Assembly (NCBI RefSeq): GCF_001753675.2
Contig: NZ_MJUW02000017.1
Coordinates: 1-64,000 of the forward strand
Length of the DNA: 64,000 nt
Source of the DNA: Candidatus Brocadia sapporoensis
GTDB taxonomy: Bacteria; Planctomycetota; Brocadiia; Brocadiales; Brocadiaceae
Direction: 5' to 3'
Made by a program: the position numbers and the translations under genes. How positions within the stretch are numbered: position 1 is the first letter of the stretch; each line of letters begins with the position of its first letter. This document shows, one piece after another, positions 4,297 to 19,768 of the stretch. The notes under the pieces were generated by a model. The model worked only from the letters and a program-made list of their open reading frames with translations, was not told the DNA's origin and did not search any database.

Positions 4297-4650
4297 ATGA
4301 TACATTATTTACCTATACTAATATTATTTATTGTTGCTGTAGGATTTGCTGTTACCAATATCGGGCTTTCGGCGATTTTGGGAAGACGCAAACCCACCGC
4401 AGAAAAACTCTCACCGTATGAGTGCGGTATTAATCCGGTGGGTTCGGCACGGGAACGTTTTTCGGTAAAGTTTTATCTTATTGCCATGTTGTTTGTTATT
4501 TTTGATATTGAAGTGGTCTTTCTTTACCCCTGGGCGGTGGCATTTAAGTCGCTTAGTCTCTTTGGTTTTATTGAAATGCTTATCTTTCTTGGCATACTCC
4601 TCATTTGTTATTTTTATATCTGGAAAAGAGGGGGGTTGGAATGGGATTAG
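4297..4650 (+). CDS. nuoA: NADH-quinone oxidoreductase subunit A
   Basis: Small membrane subunit of complex I, 117 residues, the usual length. Three hydrophobic helices are visible (about 4-25, 60-82, 88-110). The hallmark loop SPYECGINP (around residue 40) holds the conserved cysteine near the quinone channel, followed by FSVKFYL and the acidic FDIEVVF in helix 2. It is the first gene of the nuo operon. Its last codons overlap nuoB by 10 bases. It has no ribosome binding site, see the promoter entry. Confidence 0.97.
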
Positions 4651-5108
4651 AAAGTCACCTCGGTGACAATATTCTTACAACAACCTTAACCACCATGATA
4701 AACTGGGCGCGCGAGTCTTCTCTCTGGCCAATGCCGTTCGGGCTGGCCTGCTGTGCCATAGAAATGATGGCGGTAGTTGCGCCCCGCTATGATCTTGCGC
4801 GGTTTGGCGCAGAGGTCTTTCGCTTTTCACCACGGCAATCAGATCTGATGATTGTCGCTGGCACGCTTACTTACAAGATGGCGTCCGTGGCGAGAAAAAT
4901 TTACGACCAGATGCCGGAGCCGAAGTGGGTTATTGCAATGGGTGCATGTGCAGTCTCTGGCGGCGTATACAATACCTACAGCGTTGTTCAGGGTCTTGAC
5001 CAGGTTTTACCCGTAGATGTGTATCTTCCCGGATGTCCGCCCAGACCGGAGGCGTTGATCCATGCCATTATGGAAATACAAAAAAAGATTAAAAAGGAAT
5101 CGTTGTAA
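4641..5108 (+). CDS. nuoB: NADH-quinone oxidoreductase subunit B
   Basis: Carries FeS cluster N2, the last centre before quinone reduction, in the peripheral arm of complex I. The 155-residue protein shows the cluster ligands: the tandem cysteines of [10 protein letters not shown], the cysteine of MGACAVSGG and that of [10 protein letters not shown] start it at ATG 4641, preceded by a purine-rich GAGGGGGG. An upstream in-frame ATG at 4605 would add 12 residues ([12 protein letters not shown]) read from inside nuoA. It overlaps nuoA by 10 bases and is followed directly by nuoC. Confidence 0.97.
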
Positions 5109-5615
5109 ATGCCCATGAAAAATGAAGACCTGGCCGCATTAATAAAAACAAAATTTCCTGAAGCAATTATGAGCATAGCTTCATTTCGGAACGAATTGAC
5201 GCTTACCGTGAAAAAAGACGCTGTTGCCGAAATTGCGCAATTTCTTAAGAAAAACGAAGCCCTCGATTTTAATTTTTTGTCTGATCTGTGTGGAGTTGAC
5301 CGGATTGAAACGGATAATGTTTTTGATGTGGTATACCACCTCTATTCTCTTTCAAAAAATCACCGTCTGCGTCTTAAGGCGTCTGTCTCACCAGACGCGC
5401 CAAGCCTGCCAACAGTAACCGGTGTCTGGAAGACGGCAAATTGGCATGAAAGGGAGACCTACGATATGTTTGGTATTACGTTTGAGGGGCATCCTGATTT
5501 GAGAAAAATTCTTACTCCGGAAGACTTTGAAGGACATCCATTACGAAAAGATTATCCCCTGGACGGAAGACAGCCAGCCACGCTCCGGGATATTTATCGA
5601 AAGGATGAAGCGTGA
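5109..5615 (+). CDS. nuoC: NADH-quinone oxidoreductase subunit C
   Basis: The 30-kDa-type peripheral subunit, 168 residues. The family signature WHERETYDMFGITFEGHPDL is present near residue 118, followed by RKILTPEDFEGHPLRKDYPL. It is separate from NuoD, unlike the fused NuoCD of enterobacteria. ATG 5109 follows the nuoB stop immediately. The stop codon overlaps the GTG start of nuoD (GTGA, 5612-5615), implying translational coupling. Confidence 0.97.
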   Translation: MPMKNEDLAALIKTKFPEAIMSIASFRNELTLTVKKDAVAEIAQFLKKNEALDFNFLSDLCGVDRIETDNVFDVVYHLYSLSKNHRLRLKASVSPDAPSLPTVTGVWKTANWHERETYDMFGITFEGHPDLRKILTPEDFEGHPLRKDYPLDGRQPATLRDIYRKDEA

Positions 5616-6805
5616 CAGAGGCGTCAACAACCACAACTACGACCCATTTGATGACAATCAATATGGGTCCGCAACATCCCAGCACACACGGCGTTTTGAG
5701 GCTTTTGTTGGAACTGGACGGCGAGACGATCACAAAGGCAGTGCCGCATGTCGGATTCCTCCACCGGGGTGTGGAAAAGCTTGCGGAATACAGAACGTAT
5801 CATCAGTGTATCCCCCTCACCGACCGGCTGGATTATGTTGCCCCTTTTTCAAATAATTTGGCGTACGCCCTTACCGTTGAGAAACTGCTCGGCATTGAAA
5901 TTCCTGAAAGGGCACAACACATTCGCGTACTTCTTTGCGAACTCACGAGGATTGCTTCCCACCTGCTGTGGCTTGCGACTCATGCGCTGGATATCGGCGC
6001 CATGACCGTATTCTTCTATTGTTTCAGAGAGCGTGAGGCAATCTATGACATCTTTGAGATGGTGTCGGGGGCGCGGATGCATACCTCCTATATTCGGGTG
6101 GGTGGCGTATCGCGGGACTTGCCCGGTGGGTTTGCTGAGAGAACTCATAAATTTGTTATGGAATTTCCTTCCCGGCTCAACGAATACGAGACACTCCTTA
6201 CGGAAAACCCTATATGGAAAAAACGCACGGTTGACGTGGGCATTATTTCTGCAGAAGACGCCATCGATTATGGGCTCAGTGGCCCGAGTTTGCGGGGATC
6301 GGGAGTCAACTGGGATATCAGAAAGGCGGAACCCTATTCCCAATATGATAAATACCAATTTGTGGTCCCGCTGGGTAAGAACGGCGACGTATATGACCGA
6401 TATCGGATACGAATTGAAGAGATGCATCAGAGCAACGGGATCGTTCAGCAGGCGCTCAATATCCTTCCCAAGGGAGATTATCTGGCCAGGATACCGAACG
6501 TCACTCTGCCGCCGAAAGAAGACGTTGAAACGATCATGGAGTCGATGATCACTCATTTTAAACTGATTACGGATGGTATTCATCCGCCAAAGGGTGAGGT
6601 TTATGCCAGCATTGAAGCGCCGAAAGGCGAGTTAGGCTTTTATCTGGTCAGCGATGGCTCCAGCCATCCTTACCGTCTTAAGATACGGCCGCCTTCGTTT
6701 GTCAATCTCGAGGCGTTGCCGAAGATGATAGAAGGTCGTATGCTTCCTGATGTTGTCGCGACAATTGGAAGTCTTGACATCGTTTTGGGAGAAATTGATC
6801 GTTAA
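5612..6805 (+). CDS. nuoD: NADH-quinone oxidoreductase subunit D
   Basis: The 49-kDa subunit that forms the quinone site with NuoB; 397 residues. The quinone-pocket motif HPSTHGVLRL lies near residue 22 and GFLHRGVEKLAE near 47. The C-terminus ends IGSLDIVLGEIDR, typical of the family, which descends from NiFe-hydrogenase large subunits but lacks their metal cysteines. The start is GTG overlapping the nuoC stop. The run of threonines at the N-terminus (TTTTTT) precedes the conserved region and is poorly conserved in general. It is the fourth gene of the operon. Confidence 0.97.
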   Translation: MTEASTTTTTTHLMTINMGPQHPSTHGVLRLLLELDGETITKAVPHVGFLHRGVEKLAEYRTYHQCIPLTDRLDYVAPFSNNLAYALTVEKLLGIEIPERAQHIRVLLCELTRIASHLLWLATHALDIGAMTVFFYCFREREAIYDIFEMVSGARMHTSYIRVGGVSRDLPGGFAERTHKFVMEFPSRLNEYETLLTENPIWKKRTVDVGIISAEDAIDYGLSGPSLRGSGVNWDIRKAEPYSQYDKYQFVVPLGKNGDVYDRYRIRIEEMHQSNGIVQQALNILPKGDYLARIPNVTLPPKEDVETIMESMITHFKLITDGIHPPKGEVYASIEAPKGELGFYLVSDGSSHPYRLKIRPPSFVNLEALPKMIEGRMLPDVVATIGSLDIVLGEIDR

Positions 6806-6834
6806 AATTTGAATATCACGATGATATAGTAAAA

Positions 6835-7344
6835 ATGAATACCGCAAAAGAACAAGTTGCGCAAGGCAATACGGTAGATTTTTCAAAGATAGAAAAGATA
6901 CTGGGAAAATATAAAAACGCAAGAGGGGCAGTAATTCCCATTTTGCAGATGGTACAGACGGAATATGGTTATCTGCCGGAACCAGTTATCGATCGTATTT
7001 CAGAAAGATTGCATGTTAGTGTTCATGAAATAATCGGGGTTGCTACTTTTTATGCTCAGTTTCATTTAAAACCGCGCGGACAGCACATCATTAAGGTGTG
7101 TTGCGGGACTGCATGCCATATAAAAGGAGCAAAAAAGGTCATGGAGAAACTGAGCGAAACATTAGAGGTTCCCACAGGTATGACAACAAAGGATAACGCA
7201 TTCACGCTGGAGGAAGTTGCCTGTCTGGGCGCATGTTCACTGGCGCCTGTTATGATGGTGGATGAAGATCTCCATGGAAAACTAGCGCCGGATACGGTTG
7301 CTACGGTCATAAAAGAGATAAAAGAAGCGGGAATTCCCAAGTAA
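6835..7344 (+). CDS. nuoE: NADH-quinone oxidoreductase subunit E
   Basis: The 24-kDa thioredoxin-fold subunit of the NADH module with one [2Fe-2S] cluster; 169 residues. Ligands are visible as CCGTACHIKGA and CLGACSLAPVMMV. The N-terminal helical part includes the phrase GAVIPILQMVQTEYGYLP. There is a 29-base gap after nuoD, with no good ribosome binding site before ATG 6835. Because NuoE, NuoF and NuoG are all present, this complex I should oxidise NAD(P)H or use a bifurcating-type input, unlike the 11-subunit ferredoxin-type version. Confidence 0.96.
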   Translation: MNTAKEQVAQGNTVDFSKIEKILGKYKNARGAVIPILQMVQTEYGYLPEPVIDRISERLHVSVHEIIGVATFYAQFHLKPRGQHIIKVCCGTACHIKGAKKVMEKLSETLEVPTGMTTKDNAFTLEEVACLGACSLAPVMMVDEDLHGKLAPDTVATVIKEIKEAGIPK

Positions 7345-7349
7345 TTTTT

Positions 7350-9197
7350 ATGAATAGTAATGAAATGATAATTCAGCAACAAAAACCCAATCCGCAAAAA
7401 CCACAAATACTTATCGGTATGGCCTCTTGTGGTTTGGGTGCTGGTGCAAGAAATGTGCTGAAAAGTATCGAACACGAGCTGGAAAGACAAAAGCTCGATG
7501 CGGATATAGTACATACAGGTTGTATTGGTATGTGCGCATACGAGGTGCTTATGGACGTGATCTTCCCCGGCCGCACGCGTGTTACTTACGGAAATGTAAA
7601 AGCAACAATGATTCCACAAATCCTAGAAGAACACGTGGGAAGGGGAGAGGCAGTAAAGAAATACGTTATGTCACAGATGTACCTGGACGACAAGACAGTC
7701 ATTCCTTATGAAGGGTTACCCTTTTTTGATGATCTGGAGATGAATAGAGGTCAAAAAAAATATATCCTCAGGAATTGCGGATATATTGACCCCGATAGCA
7801 TCAATGAATATATTGAGCGGGGCGGATACACGGCTCTTGAAAAAGCCCTCAAGTCCATGACACCTAAAGCGATAATTGACGAAATAAGCAAATCAGGTCT
7901 CAGGGGCCGTGGTGGTGGTGGTTTTCCAACAGGTGAAAAGTGGGCATCCTGTGCCAAGTATTCTGCTGACGAAAAATTTGTCGTGTGCAATGCCGATGAG
8001 GGCGATCCGGGCGCCTTCATGGACAGGAGTCTTTTGGAAGGAGACCCTCACGCTGTTTTAGAGGGTATGATTATTGCCGGGTATGCTATTAATGCCACGG
8101 CTGGTTACATCTACATTCGTGCCGAATACCCTCTGGCAGTCAAAAGGCTAAAACATACTATTGAAGAGGCAAAAAAGCATGGTTTTCTGGGACAAAACAT
8201 ATTAAAAACCGGATACAGCATGGAAATGTATATAAAAGAGGGGGCAGGTGCCTTTGTCTGCGGTGAATCAACTGCATTACAAAACTCTATTGAAGGCAAA
8301 CGAGGTATGCCCCACACGAGGCCGCCGCAATCTGTAGAGGCCGGCCTATGGCATAAACCTACGTGTTTGAATAATGTAGAGACCTTTGCTAACGTACCAT
8401 TTATTATAAATCAGGGTGCGAATTGGTATACCAGAATTGGTACAGAAAAGAGCAAGGGAACAAAAATCTTCTCCCTGACCGGAAAGATAAAAAATGCTGG
8501 TCTTGTTGAGGTTCCTATGGGTACAACGATCAGACAAATTGTCTTCGATATGGGCGGCGGAATTCCAAAAAGAAAAAAATTTAAGGCGGTGCAAATCGGA
8601 GGTCCGTCTGGTGGTTGTCTTCCTGAATCCCTGCTGGATTCACCCATAGATTACGAATCGCTTGTCGGGGCAGGTGCAATGATGGGCTCAGGAAGTTTTG
8701 TGGTTGTTGACGAGACTACCTGCATGGTAGAGATGGCCAGATTCTTTATGAATTTTTGTGCTAATGAATCATGCGGAAAATGCCCACCCTGCCGGATTGG
8801 CACTACCCTTATCCTGGAAATCCTCACCCGTATTACCATGGGACAAGGTGAAGATAAAGATTTAGAGATACTGGAACAGATGGGTGACGAGATGAAGGTG
8901 ATGTCTCTTTGCGGTCTTGGTCAATCAGCCCCAAATCCGGTAAAATCTACCATCCGGTATTTTCGGGATGAATATGTAGCACATATCCGTGATAAAATTT
9001 GCCCAACGGCCACGTGTGTTGCCCTCCACAAGTATGAGGTGATCCCGGAAAAATGCACCAGGTGTCAGGCATGTATTCGTAATTGTCCGGTTAAGGCAAT
9101 CAGCGGCAGTGCTGCGGAAACTGCTTTCATTCATAAAGAAAAATGTATCAAGTGCAATCTTTGTTACGAAAAATGTAATTTTCTGGCAATAAAATAA
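7350..9197 (+). CDS. nuoF: NADH-quinone oxidoreductase subunit F, extended form
   Basis: NADH- and FMN-binding subunit, 615 residues, longer than the about 430 of E. coli NuoF. Domain order: thioredoxin-like [2Fe-2S] domain (about 20-105; ASCGLG, TGCIGMC), the 51-kDa core (about 150-450; RGRGGGGFPTGEKW and NADEGDPGAF for FMN/NADH), the N3 [4Fe-4S] site ESCGKCPPCR, and a C-terminal two-cluster ferredoxin (CTRCQACIRNCPVKAI, CIKCNLCYEKC). This architecture matches the flavin subunit of HydABC/HndC hydrogenases and some bacterial complexes I. The extra clusters could accept or donate ferredoxin electrons; that role is inferred. Confidence 0.95.
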   Translation: MNSNEMIIQQQKPNPQKPQILIGMASCGLGAGARNVLKSIEHELERQKLDADIVHTGCIGMCAYEVLMDVIFPGRTRVTYGNVKATMIPQILEEHVGRGEAVKKYVMSQMYLDDKTVIPYEGLPFFDDLEMNRGQKKYILRNCGYIDPDSINEYIERGGYTALEKALKSMTPKAIIDEISKSGLRGRGGGGFPTGEKWASCAKYSADEKFVVCNADEGDPGAFMDRSLLEGDPHAVLEGMIIAGYAINATAGYIYIRAEYPLAVKRLKHTIEEAKKHGFLGQNILKTGYSMEMYIKEGAGAFVCGESTALQNSIEGKRGMPHTRPPQSVEAGLWHKPTCLNNVETFANVPFIINQGANWYTRIGTEKSKGTKIFSLTGKIKNAGLVEVPMGTTIRQIVFDMGGGIPKRKKFKAVQIGGPSGGCLPESLLDSPIDYESLVGAGAMMGSGSFVVVDETTCMVEMARFFMNFCANESCGKCPPCRIGTTLILEILTRITMGQGEDKDLEILEQMGDEMKVMSLCGLGQSAPNPVKSTIRYFRDEYVAHIRDKICPTATCVALHKYEVIPEKCTRCQACIRNCPVKAISGSAAETAFIHKEKCIKCNLCYEKCNFLAIK

Positions 9198-9198
9198 A

Positions 9199-11838
9199 AT
9201 GAATATCGTACAACTGGTTATAGATGACAAACCTATCAGCGCTCCGGAAGGCACGAATGTTTTCCATGCAGCGATGAACAACGGCATTTACATTCCGGGA
9301 CTGTGCTATCATCCGAAACTCTCACAATTCGGGGGCTGCAGGCTTTGCTTTGTTGAGATCACGGAACGGAAAAGGACTGGTCACCGTTTTGCCTGTGCTC
9401 ATCCCGTGTCAGAAGGAATGGTGGTGAAAGTGAATACTCCAAGAGTCGTTCGATACCGCAAGTCGGTTATGGAGTATTTACTGGCGCATCACGAACTCTC
9501 CTGTCCTACCTGCGACAAGTCGGGAGAATGCGGACTTCAGAACATTACTTATGAACTAAATTTGGCTCCCGGCAGATTCAGGACGGTAAGAATGCACTAT
9601 CCGGTGATCCGGGATAACCCTGTATTGGAACTGAACCGCAACCGATGTGTTTTGTGCGGCCGCTGTGTAAGCACCTGTAAGGAAATTGAAGGATTGAGCG
9701 CCATTGATTTTCAGAACCGCGGTTTTAAAACGGTAGTCGGTACCGCCTTTGATCGGCCACTGGAGTGCAGTTTCTGCGGCGGCTGCGTTGCTGTGTGCCC
9801 GACCGGCGCATGGCAGGACAGAACCTTAGGGTTCAGAGGCAGAGCATGGGAATTTACCAGTACGCCTACGATTTGTCCTTACTGTTCTGTTGGATGCACG
9901 GTTGTTGTTGATACAAAAGCAGGGAACGTACGGCGGATCGTATCCAATGATCGCTTGGGAATAAATGAAGGCAATCTCTGCGTTAAGGGAAGGTTTGGCC
10001 ACGAATTTATCCACTCTCCTGAACGGTTGAAAACTCCGTTAATCAGGCGCAACGGTGAATTCTCTCCGGCAACCTGGAATGACGCTCTTGACTATGTATC
10101 GAAACGGTTCCAGGAAATTATCCAGAAATATGGGGGAACATCGATTGGTGGGATTGGTTCTGAAAGGTGTACCAATGAAGACAATTACCTCTTTCAAAAA
10201 TTCTGCAGAGCTGTCCTGGGTACGAACGTTATCGACAATATATCGAATATGAAATCGCCCTATCTCAACCGGCTGATTTATCAATCGGTGGTGAATGGAA
10301 TTGCGACGCCGTTTCTCCGAGAACTAGAACAGGCAAATACTCTCTTCTTCTTTGGCGCTGATGTAACAGAGGCACATCCCGTGATCGGCAGTATGGCCAG
10401 AAAAGCTATTAGGTTGAACAATGCGAATCTCGTCATCGCAAATGTCAGAGACGTCCAGTTCAATAGCAACGCCAAAAACGATGTTCGATTGTTCTATACG
10501 TTAGGAAGCCAGATCATCCTCATAAATGCCCTGATGAAAGTTATCATCGAGGAAGGTTTGGTTGATGAAAAGAAGGCAGAAGCGGCGACAAACCATTTTC
10601 ACGAATTGTGCTCCGCGTTGAATATGGTTACGGTCAGCGAGGCGTCTCAGCAAACAGGCGTCCCTGAGGAAACTATCAGAAATGCGGCGCGAATATTAGC
10701 AAAACCGGGAAGATGCCATATTATCTGCGGTAAGGACATTGAAGAGGACCCGTCCGGTGAAGTCGCTGTAAAAGCCTTGTTGAACCTCTGTGCCCTGCTC
10801 AATATCCTTGGAAACAATGAAGACAAACGGGCTTCGGTTTTGTTCTCAAGATCTCATAATAATTCTCAGGGTGTAAATGATATGGGGGTTGTTCCCGAAT
10901 TCCTCCCCGGGTATCTTGATTTAAATGATGCATCCCATAGGGAAAGGGTCAAAAAGATATGGGGAAGGAAACTGCCGGAGCATGTGGTGAAGGAAGATTC
11001 TGTAAATGTTATTGATCTTATGCTCAATGGCAAAGTAAAAGCATTGTACGTTATAGGAGAAAATCCTGTCATGACCTACCCGTATGGAAAAGACGTTCGG
11101 GAGGCATGCAAAAAGCTCGATTTCCTGGTTGTTCAGGATGCTTTTCTGACGGAAACGGCGCAAATGGCAGACGTTGTCCTTCCGACAGCAATCTTTGCTG
11201 AGAAGGAAGGAACCTTTACCAATATGGGGATGACCGTGCAGCGGCTGAACAGGGCACTCCAACCCGCGGGAGAAGCAAGGCAGGACTGGGAAATTCTCTG
11301 TGAACTTGCGAAAAAGATGGGATATTCTTTTTCTTATCTTTCTGTGAAGGAGGTTTTGCAGGAAATTGGAAGCTTGTCTCCCATCTATGCCGGTATTCAG
11401 TACGACCGCTTGAAAAGAAAAGAATTTCGCTGGATATCTTCCTTCTATGATAAAAATCCTCGGGCGCCGTATACCTTTGAGATTATTCGCCCTCCATCTG
11501 CCGCTATAGTAAAGAGAAAAGATTTTCCGTATCTGTTGCTTACCGGGGCTAGTTTGAATCATCATGGCTCTTTTTCCCGGCATGCAAAGGCGCTCATCGC
11601 AATTGCTCCGGAATGTTTCGTGGAAATATCCAGAAAGGTTGCACAGGATGCGGGTATCTTGAACGGAGATACGGTAACAATTGAATCCTTGCAAAACAAG
11701 ATAAAGCTGAAAGTAAAGGTTACGGACAGGATACCCGAAGGGATCGTGTTTATTCCGGAAGATTATGAGTGGGTACCGGTCAATCTGCTTCGCAATAAGA
11801 TATATACCCCGGTTAAAATCTATAAAGAAACAGAGTAG
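9199..11838 (+). CDS. nuoG: NADH-quinone oxidoreductase subunit G with molybdopterin-type domain
   Basis: Large FeS subunit, 879 residues. In order: plant-type [2Fe-2S] domain (FGGCRLCFVEI), the His-Cys3 cluster (HHELSCPTCDKSGECG), a two-cluster ferredoxin (CVLCGRCVSTC, CSFCGGCVAVCP), then a complete formate-dehydrogenase-like module. The module starts with a [4Fe-4S] site (CPYCSVGC, NLCVKGRFG) and ends with a dinucleotide-binding domain (LLTGASLNHHGSFSRHAKAL). At the position where catalytic FdhA has Cys or Sec in a CARLCH-like stretch, this protein reads NISNMKSPY, so it should not be a formate dehydrogenase. One base separates it from nuoF. Confidence 0.95.
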   Translation: MNIVQLVIDDKPISAPEGTNVFHAAMNNGIYIPGLCYHPKLSQFGGCRLCFVEITERKRTGHRFACAHPVSEGMVVKVNTPRVVRYRKSVMEYLLAHHELSCPTCDKSGECGLQNITYELNLAPGRFRTVRMHYPVIRDNPVLELNRNRCVLCGRCVSTCKEIEGLSAIDFQNRGFKTVVGTAFDRPLECSFCGGCVAVCPTGAWQDRTLGFRGRAWEFTSTPTICPYCSVGCTVVVDTKAGNVRRIVSNDRLGINEGNLCVKGRFGHEFIHSPERLKTPLIRRNGEFSPATWNDALDYVSKRFQEIIQKYGGTSIGGIGSERCTNEDNYLFQKFCRAVLGTNVIDNISNMKSPYLNRLIYQSVVNGIATPFLRELEQANTLFFFGADVTEAHPVIGSMARKAIRLNNANLVIANVRDVQFNSNAKNDVRLFYTLGSQIILINALMKVIIEEGLVDEKKAEAATNHFHELCSALNMVTVSEASQQTGVPEETIRNAARILAKPGRCHIICGKDIEEDPSGEVAVKALLNLCALLNILGNNEDKRASVLFSRSHNNSQGVNDMGVVPEFLPGYLDLNDASHRERVKKIWGRKLPEHVVKEDSVNVIDLMLNGKVKALYVIGENPVMTYPYGKDVREACKKLDFLVVQDAFLTETAQMADVVLPTAIFAEKEGTFTNMGMTVQRLNRALQPAGEARQDWEILCELAKKMGYSFSYLSVKEVLQEIGSLSPIYAGIQYDRLKRKEFRWISSFYDKNPRAPYTFEIIRPPSAAIVKRKDFPYLLLTGASLNHHGSFSRHAKALIAIAPECFVEISRKVAQDAGILNGDTVTIESLQNKIKLKVKVTDRIPEGIVFIPEDYEWVPVNLLRNKIYTPVKIYKETE

Positions 11839-11864
11839 AATGATGAACATATGAGGGTAATGGT

Positions 11865-12149
11865 ATGGCAAAAAAAGGACAGACATATTTTTGTGAGATT
11901 TGCAGACAAAAAGTCGTCGTTACGAAAGCAGGCTTCGGGGTGTTGGTATGTTGCGGCCAGGAAATGCGTTCAGCCGATGCCGGGGGGATGATGGCCACCT
12001 GGACAGCAGTCCATCATAAACCTGTAGATGGGGTAAAATTCCACTGTAACGTATGCGGACAGCAGATAGATGTTATTGTCGAAACGACAGGTATCCTGGA
12101 ATGTTGCGGTCAAAGAATGCAGCGGATTGGGGAAACGTCAGCGAAATGA
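11865..12149 (+). CDS. Tandem desulforedoxin-like small protein in nuo operon
   Basis: A 94-residue protein made of two similar halves. Each has a C-x2-C pair followed about 15-18 residues later by an adjacent CC pair: FCEICRQ with VLVCCGQEM, and FHCNVCGQQ with ILECCGQRM. This is the desulforedoxin (Dx) FeCys4 pattern found alone in desulforedoxin and at the N-terminus of desulfoferrodoxin. No C-terminal superoxide-reductase domain follows. It lies between nuoG and nuoH, and its stop overlaps the nuoH start (ATGA), so it is co-translated with complex I. A role as electron carrier, assembly factor or redox sensor for the complex is speculative. Confidence 0.85.
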   Translation: MAKKGQTYFCEICRQKVVVTKAGFGVLVCCGQEMRSADAGGMMATWTAVHHKPVDGVKFHCNVCGQQIDVIVETTGILECCGQRMQRIGETSAK

Positions 12150-13141
12150 ATAAAGAATTCCTTGTGTATCTCGTTATTGTGTGTGTTAAGATCCTGCTTG
12201 TATTTGGCGTAGTTCAGCTTATGGTCATTTCCATGATCTGGCTTGAAAGAAAGATTATGGCACACATGCAGGTGCGGCTGGGTCCGATGCGTGTTGGTCC
12301 CCATGGTTTGCTGCAACCTATAGCCGATGGTATCAAGCTCCTCTTTAAGGAAGATATTATTCCTGAAAAGGCAAGCAAGCTGCTTTTTGTCCTGGCACCG
12401 GCTATGGCAATGGTTCCGGCAATGCTCACCTTTGCCGTTATTCCTTTCGGAGACGCGGTAAAAATTCTTGGGTACAAGGTAGATCTGGTAATTACTGATG
12501 TTAATATAGGATTTCTGTATATTTTTGGCGTATCCTCCCTGGGTATTTATGGTATCGTCATGGCTGGCTGGGCATCGAACAACAAATACTCTTTGCTGGG
12601 CGGTATTCGGTCTTCAGCACAGATGATCAGCTACGAACTAACCCTTGGGCTGTCCCTGATCGGAGTAGTCATGATGACAGAGTCTTTGAGTCTGGTAGAC
12701 GTTGTTAATGCCCAGGCAAAATTATGGAATATTATTCTGCAACCAATCGGTTTTTTTATCTATTTCACGAGTGCAATAGCGGAGGTCAACCGGTGTCCGT
12801 TTGACCTGCCGGAGGCGGAATCAGAACTTGTGGCAGGATACCACACCGAGTACAGCAGTATGAAGTTTGCGATGTTTTTCATGGCTGAATATGCCAACAT
12901 GATCACCGTATCGGCCATTGCAGTAACCTTTTTTTTGGGCGGATGGCAAGGGCCATTTTTGCCTCCGGTAGTATGGTTCCTGCTCAAGTTATCGGGGTGT
13001 CTGTTTTTTTTCATCTGGATACGGTCGACGTTCCCACGGCTCAGATATGATCAGTTGATGCATTTTGGCTGGAAATTCCTGTTGCCGCTCTCGCTTTTTA
13101 ATATATTAATTACCGGACTTGTCATAGTAATAAAAGGATAA
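12146..13141 (+). CDS. nuoH: NADH-quinone oxidoreductase subunit H
   Basis: Membrane subunit that contacts the quinone cavity; 331 residues with about eight hydrophobic helices. Family motifs: ERKIMAHMQVRLGPMRVGP near residue 31, GLLQPIADGIKLLFKE, and the conserved acidic loop EVNRCPFDLPEAESELVAGY near 215. The start is ATG 12146, overlapping the preceding stop by four bases. A longer in-frame reading from 12053 would run through the desulforedoxin gene in another frame and is rejected. nuoI begins two bases later. Confidence 0.97.
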   Translation: MNKEFLVYLVIVCVKILLVFGVVQLMVISMIWLERKIMAHMQVRLGPMRVGPHGLLQPIADGIKLLFKEDIIPEKASKLLFVLAPAMAMVPAMLTFAVIPFGDAVKILGYKVDLVITDVNIGFLYIFGVSSLGIYGIVMAGWASNNKYSLLGGIRSSAQMISYELTLGLSLIGVVMMTESLSLVDVVNAQAKLWNIILQPIGFFIYFTSAIAEVNRCPFDLPEAESELVAGYHTEYSSMKFAMFFMAEYANMITVSAIAVTFFLGGWQGPFLPPVVWFLLKLSGCLFFFIWIRSTFPRLRYDQLMHFGWKFLLPLSLFNILITGLVIVIKG

Positions 13142-13142
13142 T

Positions 13143-13568
13143 ATGATCTTACCCTTATTGAAAGGACTGGCGCTTACTCTTAGGCGATTTCTCAATCCGA
13201 AGACATGCGCAACAGAACTCTATCCTGAAGAACGGCCAAAACTTTCCACGAGATTCCGGGGGTTACCGGAACTGCAGATCGGAAAAGATGGCAGGGAAAA
13301 GTGTGTTGCTTGCGGGTTATGCGCCAAGGTGTGTCCCTCGCAGTGCATTTCTATTGAAGGCGCGGAGGATGAAACGCACAGGAGATACCCAAAAACCTAT
13401 GAATTGGACGCCTTCCGTTGTATTTTCTGCGGGTTCTGTGAAGAAGCGTGTCCGGTAAGGGCTATCATCCTGAGGGATACCTTTGAACTGGCAACGTATG
13501 AGAAGAAAGACGTCTTTGATAAGGAAAAATTATTAGATCTCACGAGGAAGAGAAATTTGCCGCGATAA
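13143..13568 (+). CDS. nuoI: NADH-quinone oxidoreductase subunit I
   Basis: Ferredoxin-like subunit with clusters N6a and N6b that pass electrons to NuoB; 141 residues. The two ligand sets are CVACGLCAKVCPSQCI and CIFCGFCEEACPVRAI. The N-terminal amphipathic helix and the segment ELYPEERPKLSTRFRG match the family. It follows nuoH by one base. A 134-base gap then separates it from nuoJ; I see no hairpin strong enough to call a terminator there, and nuoJ has its own AGGTTAGGGGA ribosome binding site. Confidence 0.97.
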   Translation: MILPLLKGLALTLRRFLNPKTCATELYPEERPKLSTRFRGLPELQIGKDGREKCVACGLCAKVCPSQCISIEGAEDETHRRYPKTYELDAFRCIFCGFCEEACPVRAIILRDTFELATYEKKDVFDKEKLLDLTRKRNLPR

Positions 13569-13702
13569 ATATCTCCATCGTGATAATGGTATCTCCAATT
13601 TATGAATGGAATTAATCCTGTTAGGATTTAAAACTCTGAGAGGTTTGGCATGCGATTTTATGCTTTGGATTTTATCTTTTCTGACTCATTCAGGTTAGGG
13701 GA

Positions 13703-14212
13703 ATGTTAGCATATTTATTTTACATTGTAGCTGCAATTACGGTAACCACTGCGGTCTATCTTATCTTTGAGAAAAATCCCGTTTTTGGCGCTCTGTATCT
13801 TATTCAGACAATGGTCTCTCTTGCCGTTCTCTACATACTGCTTGAGGCGCAGTTTGTTGCTGCCGTCCAGATCATCGTATATGCCGGAGCCATTATGGTG
13901 CTCTTCCTCTTCGTAATTATGTTACTAAACCTTGATATCGGGGAAGAGACAAAGAATGCCTTGCCCTATCAAAGGATACCCGCGATTCTCATGGGGATTG
14001 CATTGTTCACTATTATTTGTATTGTTATCAGGTCAAAGCTCCTGCAAGGAAAGCAGGATCAATACACAACGGCGTTTGTTCAAGGCGTTGGAAATACAAA
14101 ACTCATTGGTAATTTATTGTTCACGGAATATCTGCTGCCATTCGAAATAACCTCTATATTGTTGTTTGTAGCGGCCATTGGCGCTATTATGCTGGCAAAG
14201 AGGAAATTATAA
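13703..14212 (+). CDS. nuoJ: NADH-quinone oxidoreductase subunit J
   Basis: Membrane subunit of 169 residues with five predicted helices. The central motif [20 protein letters not shown] (helix 3, around residue 50-70) is diagnostic and includes the pi-bulge region of complex I. The start ATG 13703 has AGGTTAGGGGA immediately before it. The stop at 14210-14212 is one base before nuoK. Confidence 0.96.
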
Positions 14213-14213
14213 G

Positions 14214-14516
14214 ATGATTACGATTACGCACTATCTGGTATTGAGCGCAATCCTGTTTACGGTGGGCGTTATTGGTGTTCTGATCCGGAGGAATGCCATC
14301 ATCATCTTTATGTGCATAGAACTCATGCTCAATGCGGTAAATCTGTCCTTTGTGGCGTGTGCCCATTACCTCAACTCCATGCAAGGCCAGTTGTTTGTAT
14401 TTTTTACTATGACCGTTGCCGCTGCTGAAGCTGCCGTCGGTCTGGCAATCATTGTCGCGGTATTCAGGAATAAAGAAACCATAAACATTGACGATATCAA
14501 TATCATGAAATGGTAG
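14214..14516 (+). CDS. nuoK: NADH-quinone oxidoreductase subunit K
   Basis: Small proton-channel subunit of 101 residues with three helices. The conserved glutamates are in [13 protein letters not shown] (helix 2) and in the helix 3 segment [15 protein letters not shown] start it at ATG 14214, one base after the nuoJ stop, rather than at an earlier in-frame ATG (14178) inside nuoJ. nuoL begins seven bases downstream. Confidence 0.97.
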
Positions 14517-14523
14517 GAATTTC

Positions 14524-16452
14524 ATGCTCAATCTCGTAGCACTAATCTTGTTATTCCCGTTAATCGGGACGGTTATCAACGGCCTTGCAGGAAAAAGATT
14601 GCGTAAGGAAACGGTGGGATACCTTGCCTGCGGGGCAATTGGTTTGTCATTCCTCGTTTCATTTATGGTATTTATCGGACTGCTCCAGTTGCCACCCGAC
14701 GAACGTCTGTTTGAAAAACACCTCTTTCGCTGGATCGAATCAGGCTCATTCATATCGGCGGCTGCCTTGCAGGTAGACCCCCTGTCCGTGGTGATGATCC
14801 TGGTCATTACCGGTGTCGGATTCCTTATCCACCTCTACTCGATTGGTTATATGCACCATGATAAGGGTTATCACCGGTATTTTTGCTACCTCAACCTATT
14901 CGTCTTCTCCATGCTCCTGCTGGTACTCAGTAATAATTTCCTCCTCATGTTTATCGGATGGGAAGCAGTCGGATTATGTTCATATCTGCTTATCGGATTC
15001 TGGTTTGAAAAGAAATCGGCCTCTGATGCAGCCAAAAAGGCCTTTGTTGTAAACCGGGTCGGTGATTTTGGTTTTGCCCTCGGCATTATGCTGATTTTTC
15101 TGACCTTTCACAGTATCGATTTTACGGAAGTATTCAGCGCTGTTTCTCACGGGAATTTCGAGAAGGGCAGTTTCACGGTGACGATGATCACCCTGCTTTT
15201 GTTCATAGGGGCAACGGGTAAATCAGCCCAGATACCCTTGTACACGTGGCTGCCAGATGCTATGGAAGGCCCAACGCCGGTCAGTGCACTCATCCATGCG
15301 GCAACCATGGTAACGGCAGGCGTTTATATGATCGCCCGATGCAACGCCCTGTATCTGTTGTCTCCGTTCACAATGACCGTGGTGGCCAGTATTGGCGTAA
15401 TAACGGCGCTTTTTGCTGCATCCGTCGGTCTGGTGCAAAATGATATCAAGCGGGTGCTGGCATATTCCACTATCAGCCAACTCGGCTATATGTTTCTGGC
15501 CTGCGGTGTGGGTGCATTTACAGCGGGTGTCTTTCACCTGATGACCCATGCATTTTTTAAAGCCTTGTTATTTCTTGCTTCAGGAAGTGTCATTCACGCT
15601 CTGTCCGGTGAGCAGGATATAAGGAAGATGGGCGGGCTGAAACCCCACATTCCTGTCACATACAAGACCTTTTTGATTGGTACAGTTGCTATTGCTGGTA
15701 TTCCTCCGTTTGCAGGGTTTTTCAGCAAAGACGAAATTTTATTAGAAGCGCTCGTCCGTGGGAATTTCATTTACTGGTCGCTTGGAGCCTTTGCCGCCTT
15801 GTTAACAGCTTTTTATATGTTCCGTTTACTCTTTATGACTTTTCATGGGGAATGCCGGGTTGATCACCATGCGATGGAACATCTCCATGAGTCTCCAAAA
15901 AATATGACTTTGCCTCTCGTCGCGCTTGCGGGGCTTTCTTTTGTCGGTGGATTCTTTGGTATTCCCGGCGCAAATGCGTTGGAACACTTTTTAGCGCCTG
16001 TACTGGGCGGACACGGCCATACTGAGGTTCGCGGGGCAGTGTCAGCCGGGCATCACGGCGCATGGCTTCCCTATCTGATGATGGTTATTTCGACGGCAAT
16101 CGCCCTTGTCGGGATATTCCTTGCGTACCAGATGTATATCAAGAAACCGGGGTTATCCAAAAAACTGGCAGAACGATTCCGGCTTATCCATAAACTCCTG
16201 TTGAACAAGTATTATGTTGACGAAATCTACGATGCCATCTTTATTAACCCGACAAAAAAAATCTCGACCCAAGTCTTATGGAAGGTGATTGATGTCAGGA
16301 TGATTGATGGTTCGGTAAATGGTATCGCCTGGCTTGTAGGAAGAATCGGGAGTGTTTTGCGTCACTTGCAAACAGGATATATCCGTAATTATGCCTTTTA
16401 TATTGTTGTGGGCTGCATCCTTATTATTGTACTTGCTGTGTTTGGCAGGTAA
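14524..16452 (+). CDS. nuoL: NADH-quinone oxidoreductase subunit L
   Basis: Antiporter-like proton-pumping subunit with the long lateral helix; 642 residues. Conserved pieces are GWEAVGLCSYLLIGFW (helix 5 glutamate), GATGKSAQIPLYTWLPDAME (helix 7 lysine), GPTPVSALIHAATMVTAGVY and LGYMFLACGVGAF. A histidine-rich loop (HHAMEHLHE, HGHTE, HHGAW) falls around residues 445-515. The C-terminal helix pair typical of NuoL follows. It is preceded by TAGGA before ATG 14524 and continues the operon toward nuoM. Confidence 0.96.
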   Translation: MLNLVALILLFPLIGTVINGLAGKRLRKETVGYLACGAIGLSFLVSFMVFIGLLQLPPDERLFEKHLFRWIESGSFISAAALQVDPLSVVMILVITGVGFLIHLYSIGYMHHDKGYHRYFCYLNLFVFSMLLLVLSNNFLLMFIGWEAVGLCSYLLIGFWFEKKSASDAAKKAFVVNRVGDFGFALGIMLIFLTFHSIDFTEVFSAVSHGNFEKGSFTVTMITLLLFIGATGKSAQIPLYTWLPDAMEGPTPVSALIHAATMVTAGVYMIARCNALYLLSPFTMTVVASIGVITALFAASVGLVQNDIKRVLAYSTISQLGYMFLACGVGAFTAGVFHLMTHAFFKALLFLASGSVIHALSGEQDIRKMGGLKPHIPVTYKTFLIGTVAIAGIPPFAGFFSKDEILLEALVRGNFIYWSLGAFAALLTAFYMFRLLFMTFHGECRVDHHAMEHLHESPKNMTLPLVALAGLSFVGGFFGIPGANALEHFLAPVLGGHGHTEVRGAVSAGHHGAWLPYLMMVISTAIALVGIFLAYQMYIKKPGLSKKLAERFRLIHKLLLNKYYVDEIYDAIFINPTKKISTQVLWKVIDVRMIDGSVNGIAWLVGRIGSVLRHLQTGYIRNYAFYIVVGCILIIVLAVFGR

Positions 16453-16517
16453 GCAGGATAGGTATTGCTTACCGAAAAACTGTCTTTTAACGCTGGCCTT
16501 TTCATAACTGAATATCT

Positions 16518-18080
16518 ATGCCTATGCTTTCACTCGTAACCTTTTTCCCGGTCATCGGGGTATTTTTTATCCTTTTCATGGATTCTAGGAGAAAGGAACT
16601 TGTCAGGGTTACCACTCTGCTGGTTTCAATTGTGGTGTTTGTCCTTTCCCTTCCTTTGTATTTCAATTTCAATGCCCATGCGTATGAGATGCAGTTTGTT
16701 GAAAAATTGCCGTGGATACCTTCCTTTGGAATCAACTATCACGTCGGAGTAGATGGAATAAGCCTTTTTCTTATTCTTTTGACTACCTTTCTCATGCCCA
16801 TCTCTATCCTGGCCTCATGGCATATCACGAAGCATGTGAAGGAATATATGATTGCTATGCTCGTGCTTGAGACGGGTATGGTTGGCGTGTTTATTTCGCT
16901 GGACCTGTTTTTGTTTTATGTATTCTGGGAGCTTATGTTGATTCCCATGTATCTTCTCATTGGCATCTGGGGCGGACCGCGAAGAATTTATGCGGCGATA
17001 AAATTCTTCCTTTATACTATGACCGGCAGCGTCTTTATGCTCCTGGCAATCATTGCCTTGTATTTTCTTAATTACCGTGCAACGGGCAATTATACGTTTA
17101 ATCTTCTGGAATTTTACCGTCTGGAACTCTCGTTTGCCGTTCAATTCTGGTTGTTCATTGCCTTTGCGCTTGCCTTTGCTATAAAAGTTCCTATGTTTCC
17201 CTTTCATACCTGGCTGCCGGATGCACATGTGGAGGCACCCACCGCCGGAAGTGTTATCCTGGCAGGGGTGCTCTTAAAAATGGGGACGTATGGCTTTGTG
17301 CGATTCTGCCTGCCACTGTTTCCGGAGGCAAGCCACGCCTTCATCCCGGTAATTTCCTGGATGGCAATTGTTGGTATCATTTATGGCGCATTGGTCTCTA
17401 TGGTGCAAGACGACCTGAAAAAACTGGTTGCTTATTCCAGCGTAAGTCATTTAGGCTTCATCATGCTGGGCATTTTTGCCTTTAATATCCAGGGGATCGA
17501 GGGTGGCATTACCCAAATGATCAATCACGGACTAAGCACCGGGGCCCTCTTTCTTGTGGTTGGAATGCTCTACGAAAGAAGGCATACACGAATGATCGCG
17601 GATTTTGGGGGGTTAACCAGGCAGATGCCGGTTTTTGCCACCTTCTTTATGATCGTTACCTTGTCTTCCATCGGATTACCTGGTTTAAATGGCTTTGTGG
17701 GAGAGTTCCTTATTCTCGTGGGTACATTCAAGTCACGCATCCTGTATGCATCCATTGCAACGTCGGGTATTATCCTTGCTGCGGTATATATGCTCTGGAT
17801 GTTTCAGCGGGTCATGTTTCATGAAATCACCCATGAAGAGAATAAGAAGTTAACGGATGTGAGTAAGCGGGAATTTGCCATCTTACTTCCCCTGATCATA
17901 GTCATCTTCTGGATAGGCATCTATCCTAGCTCGTTTCTACGGAAGATGGATGCATCGGTAAACCACCTTTTAAGACAGACGGGCGAAGGGGTAAACAGCG
18001 TTTCCCGTCTCCAAAAACAAAATAAACAGACAATGCCACAGATTGACATCGTTTCAGAAACCAAAACAGAATGGGAATGA
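16518..18080 (+). CDS. nuoM: NADH-quinone oxidoreductase subunit M
   Basis: Second antiporter-like subunit, 520 residues, about 14 helices. Signatures: [20 protein letters not shown] (helix 5 glutamate near residue 140), [20 protein letters not shown] (helix 7 lysine), and [20 protein letters not shown]. The polar C-terminal tail of about 35 residues is not conserved. It is separated from nuoL by 65 bases. A second ATG two codons in (16524) is an alternative start. The following 224 bases before nuoN contain no gene. Confidence 0.96.
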
Positions 18081-18304
18081 TAGGTACCTGTAAGGCAGGA
18101 AATTCATAGCGCAGCATAGTAGCACCAAATTTCATCTTTTTGGGGGGAGCAAAAAGAATTATAAAAAAGATTTTATATTGGTAATATTAAAATGCAGTAA
18201 ACCCGTAACATAATTTCTGCTTAGCAAAGGGTAATACGTGCGAAACCCCTCTTGTTAAGAGACTAAAGAAGCTTGCTAAAAGAGAAAACTTTAAAAGGTC
18301 GTTT

Positions 18305-19768
18305 ATGACAAATGTTTCCATCATGACGTTTAATATCCTGAGTATCTTGCCGATCCTGATCCTGTCGGGTTTTGGAATGATCGTACTCCTCGTCGACGTT
18401 TTATCTTCAAGGAGATTGGGGGAAAAGAATCTTCTTGCTTACATATCTTTAATAGGGATTATTCTTGCCGCTATCTTCGCCAGAAGTCCTGCCGGGACGA
18501 CCCTCTTCTCGTTCAATGAGTCCTTTGCAATCGATAACTATTCCCTCTTTTTTAATTTTATCTTCTTGCTCAGCACGGGACTCACAATTCTGATATCACA
18601 CAGTTATATTAAACGTGAGGAGATTAATCACGGGGAATATTACGCCCTCATTCTGTTTTCTACCATTGGGATGATGCTCATGGCGGCCGGCGCTGATTTG
18701 CTGAATATTTTCATCGGTCTTGAGGTTATGTCCATTAGTATTTACATCCTGACGGGGTTTAAACGTTCGAAGCTCATCTCAAATGAGGCATCTTTGAAAT
18801 ATTTCCTGCTTGGTGCGTTTGCCACGGGCTTTTTACTCTATGGCATCTCCCTTGTCTATGGTTCTACAGGTGCGATCAATCTGAAACAGATCGCCAGCTT
18901 TATTGCCAGTAAGGGAGGCATTTCAGACCCCGTGTTGCTCATGGGAATGGGGCTGATTATCATTGGGCTCGGATTCAAGGTTGCTTCCGTACCGTTTCAT
19001 GCATGGGTGCCTGATGTCTATGAAGGAGCGCCCACCGCAATTACGGCCTTCATGTCGGTTGGGCCAAAGGCCGCGGGTTTTGCCGCCTTTTTGCGAATTC
19101 TCATAACCGCTTTCGGCTCGGCTCATGACGAATGGCAAAAGATTATTTACATCCTCGCCATCTTGACCATGACGACAGGAAACGTCATTGCCATTGCCCA
19201 GACAAACATCAAGCGCATGCTTGCTTATTCCAGCATTGCCCATGCTGGCTATCTTCTTATTGCTCTGGTGTCAGCAAATGATATGGGCGTATCGGGAACG
19301 CTATTTTATATGCTGGCGTATACGTTTATGAATATTGGGGCATTTGCTATTGTTATTGTACTGAGCCGCAAAGGTGACGAATTCATCCAAATCAATGACT
19401 ATGCCGGATTGGGATTTAAACATCCGCTCCTTGCCCTTGCGATGACCCTTTTTATGTTTTCCATGGCGGGTGTACCGCCCACGGCAGGTTTCGTGGGAAA
19501 ATTTTATATCTTCAGCGCTGCTATAAAATCGGGTTATATCGGGCTTGCCGTTATTGGGGTAATTAACAGTGTTATCTCTGTGTATTACTACTTAAGAATC
19601 ACGGTAATTATGTACATGAAAGAACCCACAAGGGAATTCGCCCCCCTCACTATTTCACCCCTGATCGTTGCCGCCATCGCTATCTCGGTGATTGGCACAC
19701 TTCATCTGGGCATTTTCCCTTCTAAAGTTATGGAAATTGCTCAACAAGCTACGCTCATGTTGAAATAA
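18305..19768 (+). CDS. nuoN: NADH-quinone oxidoreductase subunit N
   Basis: Third antiporter-like subunit, 487 residues. Motifs: IFIGLEVMSISIYILTGF (helix 5 glutamate), GLGFKVASVPFHAWVPDVYE (helix 7 lysine), GAPTAITAFMSVGPKAAGFA and KRMLAYSSIAHAGYLL. AAAAGG precedes ATG 18305. The 224-base gap from nuoM (18081-18304) has no visible gene; it may hold a secondary promoter or processing site, but I see no clear consensus pair. It is the last gene of the nuo locus, converging with the next gene. Confidence 0.96.
   Translation: MTNVSIMTFNILSILPILILSGFGMIVLLVDVLSSRRLGEKNLLAYISLIGIILAAIFARSPAGTTLFSFNESFAIDNYSLFFNFIFLLSTGLTILISHSYIKREEINHGEYYALILFSTIGMMLMAAGADLLNIFIGLEVMSISIYILTGFKRSKLISNEASLKYFLLGAFATGFLLYGISLVYGSTGAINLKQIASFIASKGGISDPVLLMGMGLIIIGLGFKVASVPFHAWVPDVYEGAPTAITAFMSVGPKAAGFAAFLRILITAFGSAHDEWQKIIYILAILTMTTGNVIAIAQTNIKRMLAYSSIAHAGYLLIALVSANDMGVSGTLFYMLAYTFMNIGAFAIVIVLSRKGDEFIQINDYAGLGFKHPLLALAMTLFMFSMAGVPPTAGFVGKFYIFSAAIKSGYIGLAVIGVINSVISVYYYLRITVIMYMKEPTREFAPLTISPLIVAAIAISVIGTLHLGIFPSKVMEIAQQATLMLK

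Follow-up and report, generated by a model that had tools for sequence, protein, structure and literature searches.

The window (the whole stretch of 64,000 nucleotides of Candidatus Brocadia sapporoensis DNA that was analysed, contig NZ_MJUW02000017.1) carries a complete complex I operon, nuoA to nuoN. There is an additional small gene within this operon, between nuoG and nuoH, which encodes a protein with two desulforedoxin (Dx) units and which we refer to as Dx2. The features of the locus, all on the + strand, are given below.

4297..19768, +, complex I operon nuoA-N with Dx2 as the fifteenth gene (Pfam; nuoL by relatives)
9199..11838, +, nuoG, 879 aa, immediately 5' of Dx2 (Fer2_4, NADH-G_4Fe-4S_3, Molybdopterin, Molydop_binding)
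11853..11857, +, GAGGG, likely ribosome-binding site 7 bases 5' of the Dx2 ATG (read directly; inferred)
11865..12149, +, Dx2, tandem desulforedoxin protein, 94 aa (ATG start; open frame with translation; kept in 43/62 genomes of the order)
11868..11969, +, desulforedoxin unit 1, residues 2-35, Cys 10, 13, 29 and 30 (best PF06397 stretch; model against 1dxg_A)
11988..12023, +, linker, residues 42-53, MMATWTAVHHKP (alignment of 21 sequences)
12030..12125, +, desulforedoxin unit 2, about residues 56-87, Cys 61, 64, 80 and 81 (second PF06397 stretch; model)
12146..13141, +, nuoH, the start of which overlaps the Dx2 stop (Pfam)

Thirteen of the 14 complex I subunits of the window are matched by Pfam (A, B, C, D, E, F, G, H, I, J, K, M and N), and nuoL was assigned to the 642-aa ORF at 14524-16452 by its conserved place and by similarity in relatives. 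Dx2 starts 26 bases 3' of the nuoG stop, and its TGA shares the sequence ATGA (12146-12149) with the ATG of nuoH, giving a four-base overlap.

The first-pass annotation of this DNA had described the product as a tandem desulforedoxin of two units in 94 residues, and this is borne out. Dx2 matches Pfam PF06397 (E 4.3e-18, 65.1 bits, cut-off 23) and NCBIfam TIGR00319 (E 2e-13, 49.8 bits, cut-off 36.05), in two stretches each. Both repeats have the ligand pattern C-x2-C-x15-C-C, which is the spacing that the accessible part of PMC11980386 gives for desulforedoxin-like FeS centres. All eight cysteines are invariant among 21 aligned sequences, and there is likewise no variation in M42, M43, W46, T47 and P53 of the linker, a segment that lies outside every family matched in the Pfam search. 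The two repeats are identical at 8 of 26 non-Cys residues, which was matched by 29 of 20000 Cys-fixed shuffles. The dN/dS ratio of Dx2 against six relatives is 0.058-0.103, indicating strong purifying selection.

The closest solved protein to Dx2 is the desulforedoxin 1cfw (phmmer E 3.5e-6). AlphaFold predicts the entire protein with moderate confidence (mean pLDDT 71, pTM 0.60). The model of unit 1 (residues 3-37) superposes on 1dxg_A with 35 aligned residues, an rmsd of 0.5 Å and a Z of 3.9, and a separate model of the second half (mean pLDDT 75) superposes on the same chain with 34 aligned residues, an rmsd of 1.2 Å and a Z of 5.2. Each half is thus predicted, with moderate model confidence, to adopt the desulforedoxin fold. 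A fold search with the whole chain gave nothing at E <=0.001, the useful matches being single Dx units, and matches of the second-half model to MCM and ribosomal proteins (Z 3-4) were put down to a small zinc-ribbon likeness.

Dx2 has the C-x2-C-x15-CC pattern and the fold in common with the desulforedoxin of Desulfovibrio gigas (1dxg/1cfw), which however has one 36-residue unit per chain where Dx2 has two and a conserved linker of its own. Desulforedoxin is a homodimer and Dx2 is probably its single-chain counterpart. As such it would be small and soluble and would carry single electrons by way of two Fe(Cys)4 sites per chain. In this reading iron rather than zinc would occupy these sites and the protein would be redox active; the partners given below, and which of them donates and which accepts electrons, are likewise predictions. 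Desulfoferrodoxin, or 2Fe-superoxide reductase (1vzg, 2ji1-2ji3, 1dfx), has an N-terminal Dx domain as in Dx2, but it also has the superoxide reductase (SOR) domain PF01880, to which there is no Pfam match in Dx2. Consistent with this, the score of Dx2 against dfx_rbo (40.5 bits) is under the cut-off of 146.9 and does not place it among the desulfoferrodoxins.

When 84,980 species genomes were scanned with the Dx2 protein alone, 30 loci were obtained, which are from Brocadia, Jettenia, Kuenenia, Loosdrechtia and Scalindua or from bins labelled Planctomycetota, Brocadiaceae or uncultured. A profile search for full-length Dx2 was then made in 62 genomes of the order: 33 of the window's own family (f1, with Brocadia, Jettenia and Kuenenia), nine of f2, 17 of the family that contains Scalindua (f3), two of f4 and one of f101. 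The gene is present in 43 of the 62 genomes, comprising 29/33 in f1 and 14/17 in f3; the same search found none in f2 (0/9), f4 (0/2) or f101 (0/1), or 0/12 together. In 392 genomes of the phylum there is no clear full-length Dx2 outside the order, and a protein search of plasmid records with Dx2 gave no match. The sole candidate for a tandem Dx from outside the order (G172), which has an in-frame TAG between two divergent Dx-like stretches, was left uncounted, and three loci (L030, L059 and L060) were set aside because they are pieces of contigs or duplicate L012. Of the 62 genomes, 40 have hydrazine synthase alpha, and each of the families f1 to f4 is represented among them. The families f2 and f4 are thus anammox lineages as well, and Dx2 as a marker of anammox as such is ruled out because these families have hydrazine synthase alpha without it.

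Within nuo, Dx2 lies 3' of nuoG in 37 of the 43 genomes that have the gene. In f1, nuoG is upstream of Dx2 on the same strand in all 29 genomes, and the order nuoG-Dx2-nuoH is present in 8 of the 14 Dx2-bearing f3 genomes. The order is kept in both families and is therefore old. The place between nuoG and nuoH given in the first-pass annotation is conserved in relatives; a lack of the gene from all their nuo operons, which that annotation had named as counting against it, did not occur. The suggested comparison of planctomycete nuo operons shows the arrangement in two anammox families, but it is not general, being absent from f2 and f4. Tight coupling is no part of the old order. In 28 of the 29 f1 genomes the retrieved DNA includes nuoH, which is separated from the Dx2 match by 0-1098 bases (<=70 in 23 and 160-1098 in five). 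The four-base overlap therefore describes the window but varies in relatives, and of the two arguments that had been made against a chance insertion, position stands and translational coupling does not; the gene is nevertheless no chance insertion.

In two Kuenenia-like genomes the distance from the nuoG match to Dx2 is about 1.0 and 1.3 kb. Between Dx2 and nuoH there is a small ORF and a PIN-domain gene in L043 (5909-6449, by Pfam) and a small ORF and a PIN-domain-like gene in L044 (8372-8897, by sequence likeness only), both toxin-antitoxin-like in arrangement, and a PIN-domain gene weakly matched by Pfam in L052. This loose coupling, with the intervening genes and the 1 kb spacing, is what would be expected if Dx2 were an ordinary small desulforedoxin-family gene placed in nuo for expression only and functionally unconnected to complex I. 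We consider this highly improbable, because the place in nuo is held across two families and because Dx2 is missing in four genomes that have no nuo-type NADH module.

These four genomes are among seven of f1 and f3 from which Dx2 is absent. In the other three the assembly is broken at or near the site: NuoG is cut at a contig end in G001, nuoH is cut at a contig start in G014, and there is a break between NuoG and nuoH in G414. The four genomes without a nuo-type NADH module are G006, G023, G385 and G416. There is no nuoH in G006, G023 or G385, which have NuoG paralogues only, at about 36-39% identity. In G416 (L133), an anammox member of the Scalindua family, nuoD is followed directly by nuoH with no nuoEFG between them, and there is no close NuoF or NuoG. 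G416 and G385 retain a peroxide-detoxification cluster (a rubredoxin-like/Dx fusion with rubrerythrins, described below) and G416 also retains NROR. As the detoxification cluster is kept in these two genomes while the NADH module and Dx2 are both missing, the distribution of Dx2 agrees better with that of the complex I NADH module than with that of the detoxification cluster. The exception is G409, where Dx2 is in the detoxification cluster and no nuoH or nuo-type NuoG/NuoF was found in an assembly that is 79% complete. Save for contig breaks and G409, Dx2 follows the nuo-type NADH module within f1 and f3.

This distribution would agree with Dx2 being an accessory subunit of the peripheral arm, or an assembly factor, of complex I with structural metal sites (iron or zinc). 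A complex I subunit should be encoded in nuo, as Dx2 is in the window and in the 37 genomes. The four genomes without the NADH module have no Dx2, nuoD adjoins nuoH in one of them, and the linker is conserved to the same degree as the metal sites. However, Dx2 is not present wherever complex I occurs in the order. The nine genomes of f2 and the two of f4 have no Dx2, although nuoH was found in these families, and since NuoG and NuoF of f4 are related to those of the window (43-45% and 61-62% identical, respectively), a complex I of a related kind works without Dx2. G409, which has Dx2 and none of the nuo genes sought, also counts against a subunit, as does the relocation described below, and we regard this explanation, the main alternative to the carrier proposed below, as possible but doubtful. 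Mitochondrial complex I has a zinc-binding accessory subunit. Such accessory subunits are like Dx2 in being small metal-site proteins linked with the peripheral-arm genes, but the Dx2 gene is missing or has moved in some lineages. Kuenenia has two complex I clusters of 14 subunits according to the accessible part of PMC7709395; if Dx2 were a fixed subunit, anammox complex I would have a metal-binding component left out of the 14-subunit description.

In both f4 genomes there is a PAS-GAF gene between nuoF and nuoG (L107, 10146-11108; L135, 9903-10856), so regulators do occur in this operon. Dx2 might similarly be a redox or metal sensor through which oxygen or NO adjusts complex I or the expression of its genes, as it is encoded in an operon of an anaerobe that is sensitive to oxygen and, in one clade, in a detoxification operon. 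Pfam found no DNA-binding or signalling domain in its 94 residues, which makes a sensor improbable.

Six f3 genomes (G332, G353, G409, G410, G411 and G413) have Dx2 outside nuo. Here it is 3' of a gene for an NROR-like FAD protein (Pyr_redox_2 and Rubredoxin_C) and 5' of a gene for a 77-residue rubredoxin-like/Dx fusion, beyond which there are, in all six, two rubrerythrin-family proteins and then a single Dx. A superoxide reductase is upstream of the cluster in the five genomes whose contig extends there, and it bears a Tat signal (checked in G332). The fusion joins a rubredoxin domain of the rubrerythrin type to a desulforedoxin domain (L094, 9052-9285). It is matched nearly full length in 14/17 f3 genomes and in 0/33 f1 genomes; in G353 the match is restricted to the rubredoxin-like half.

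In this clade there is no Dx2 at the nuoG-nuoH junction in any of the five genomes where the junction is visible (L105, L106, L130, L131 and L132); the sixth genome, G409, yielded no nuoH. NROR adjoins the fusion, with no Dx2 between them, in the seven nuo-type f3 genomes where the NROR cluster was found (L124 and L136-L141). No genome among the 62 has full-length Dx2 at both sites. In midpoint-rooted trees the six genomes form a single clade (100/100 for NROR and 100/98 for Dx2), and in the nuoH tree the five that have nuoH form a 100/100 clade with G414 beside the nuo-type Scalindua relatives. The simplest history looks like one move of Dx2 from nuo to the NROR operon, the direction being chosen because the nuo position is more widespread. 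All eight cysteines are kept in the six relocated copies and the linker motif is kept with single changes.

The presence of Dx2 at the same site in an NROR/rubrerythrin operon, in six genomes of one clade, argues against a subunit or assembly factor. Relocation shows that Dx2 is able to act elsewhere and its position in nuo is not by itself proof that it is a complex I subunit. A redox carrier is favoured by the relocation between an NROR-like gene and a rubredoxin-like/Dx gene, by the conservation of the eight cysteines and the linker in the relocated copies, and by the recurrence in the order of Dx genes beside rubrerythrin genes, whereas the phylogenetic profile speaks for a link with the NADH module. 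Both the relocation and the profile are accounted for by a carrier that connects the NADH-oxidising side of complex I with rubrerythrin-type reductases; a structural subunit fits the profile only, unless the move was neutral. Taken together, the location of Dx2 either in nuo or in a peroxide-defence operon suggests electron transfer by Dx2 between complex I and peroxide defence, and the guess of the first-pass annotation that it might be an electron carrier gains support from the second of these locations.

We therefore propose, with about even confidence for and against, that Dx2 shuttles electrons between NADH oxidation and detoxification of the rubrerythrin type by means of two Fe(Cys)4 sites in a single chain. 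The electron donor would be the NuoEF module of complex I, encoded by adjacent genes, in the nuo-type lineages and the NROR-like protein in the relocated clade, and electrons would pass from Dx2 to cytoplasmic rubrerythrin-type peroxide/oxygen reductases. According to the available text of PMC7482061, known Dx-like centres have potentials close to 0 mV apart from one at +240 mV, so that transfer from NADH to Dx2 would be downhill if iron is bound. Several observations count against a carrier. Dx2 is missing in G416 and G385 in spite of their fusion/rubrerythrin cluster. The f1 genomes lack the fusion and have no close homologue of the Scalindua-family NROR (one match among the 33, at 33% identity, in G019), and the rubredoxins present in 30/33 of them could serve instead. 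The Tat signal of the cluster SOR would place that enzyme across the membrane from Dx2. A more specific version of the proposal is that the complex I NADH module also serves as an NADH:desulforedoxin reductase, on which Dx2 docks at NuoEFG to feed peroxide- and oxygen-reducing rubrerythrins, and that with the relocation a dedicated NROR replaced complex I as the donor. This version is rather unlikely; if it were true, the respiratory chain itself would power detoxification.

The company of the relocated gene is that of the NROR-rubredoxin-rubrerythrin/SOR chains of anaerobes, but such chains normally use rubredoxin as the carrier and do not involve a complex I operon. Rubredoxin/NROR is given as the usual electron source for SOR and rubrerythrin in the accessible parts of PMC11980386 and PMC10156729. 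Dx2 as a stand-in for a missing rubredoxin is ruled out in the window's family by the rubredoxins of the 30 f1 genomes, and there are three matches in the window's own genome; in f2, rubredoxin was found in none of the nine genomes. A 38-residue desulforedoxin gene is directly 3' of a rubrerythrin-family gene at two f2 loci (L090, 9212-9850; L092, 9084-9735). The desulforubrerythrin of Campylobacter jejuni (Rrc, Cj0012c), a rubrerythrin with a Dx-like N-terminus in the portion available of PMC2764114, also joins a Dx centre with rubrerythrin. Rrc is a fusion in one chain, whereas Dx2 is a separate gene, mostly without a visible rubrerythrin neighbour.

The listing seen in PMC10156729 includes anammox neelaredoxin, NROR, flavodiiron proteins and rubrerythrins and shows no anammox desulfoferrodoxin entry, and the part seen of PMC13253579 reports that oxygen induces superoxide reductase and flavodiiron genes in Scalindua. 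No published account of a desulforedoxin in anammox bacteria or in a complex I operon was found in a literature search that mostly excluded subscription journals, and the available part of the SORGOdb paper does not describe Dx2. A protein with two desulforedoxin units per chain, whose gene is part of the complex I operon in two anammox families and seems to have moved once, is apparently undescribed. How anammox complex I operates and how these bacteria survive oxygen are open questions that bear on wastewater treatment and ocean nitrogen loss, and Dx2, being conserved, offers a testable link between complex I and peroxide defence.

Finally, the neighbouring subunits of the window have features of their own. 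NuoG (9199-11838) scores higher against the formate dehydrogenase alpha model TIGR01591 (536 bits, cut-off 666) than against that of NuoG (442 bits, cut-off 470). NuoG paralogues of ~38% identity in G006, G014, G023 and G364 have one TGA within the match, which perhaps encodes selenocysteine. NuoF (7350-9197) has a C-terminal two-cluster ferredoxin domain, with Fer4 at about 563-611, which we take to resemble that of HydB-type subunits.
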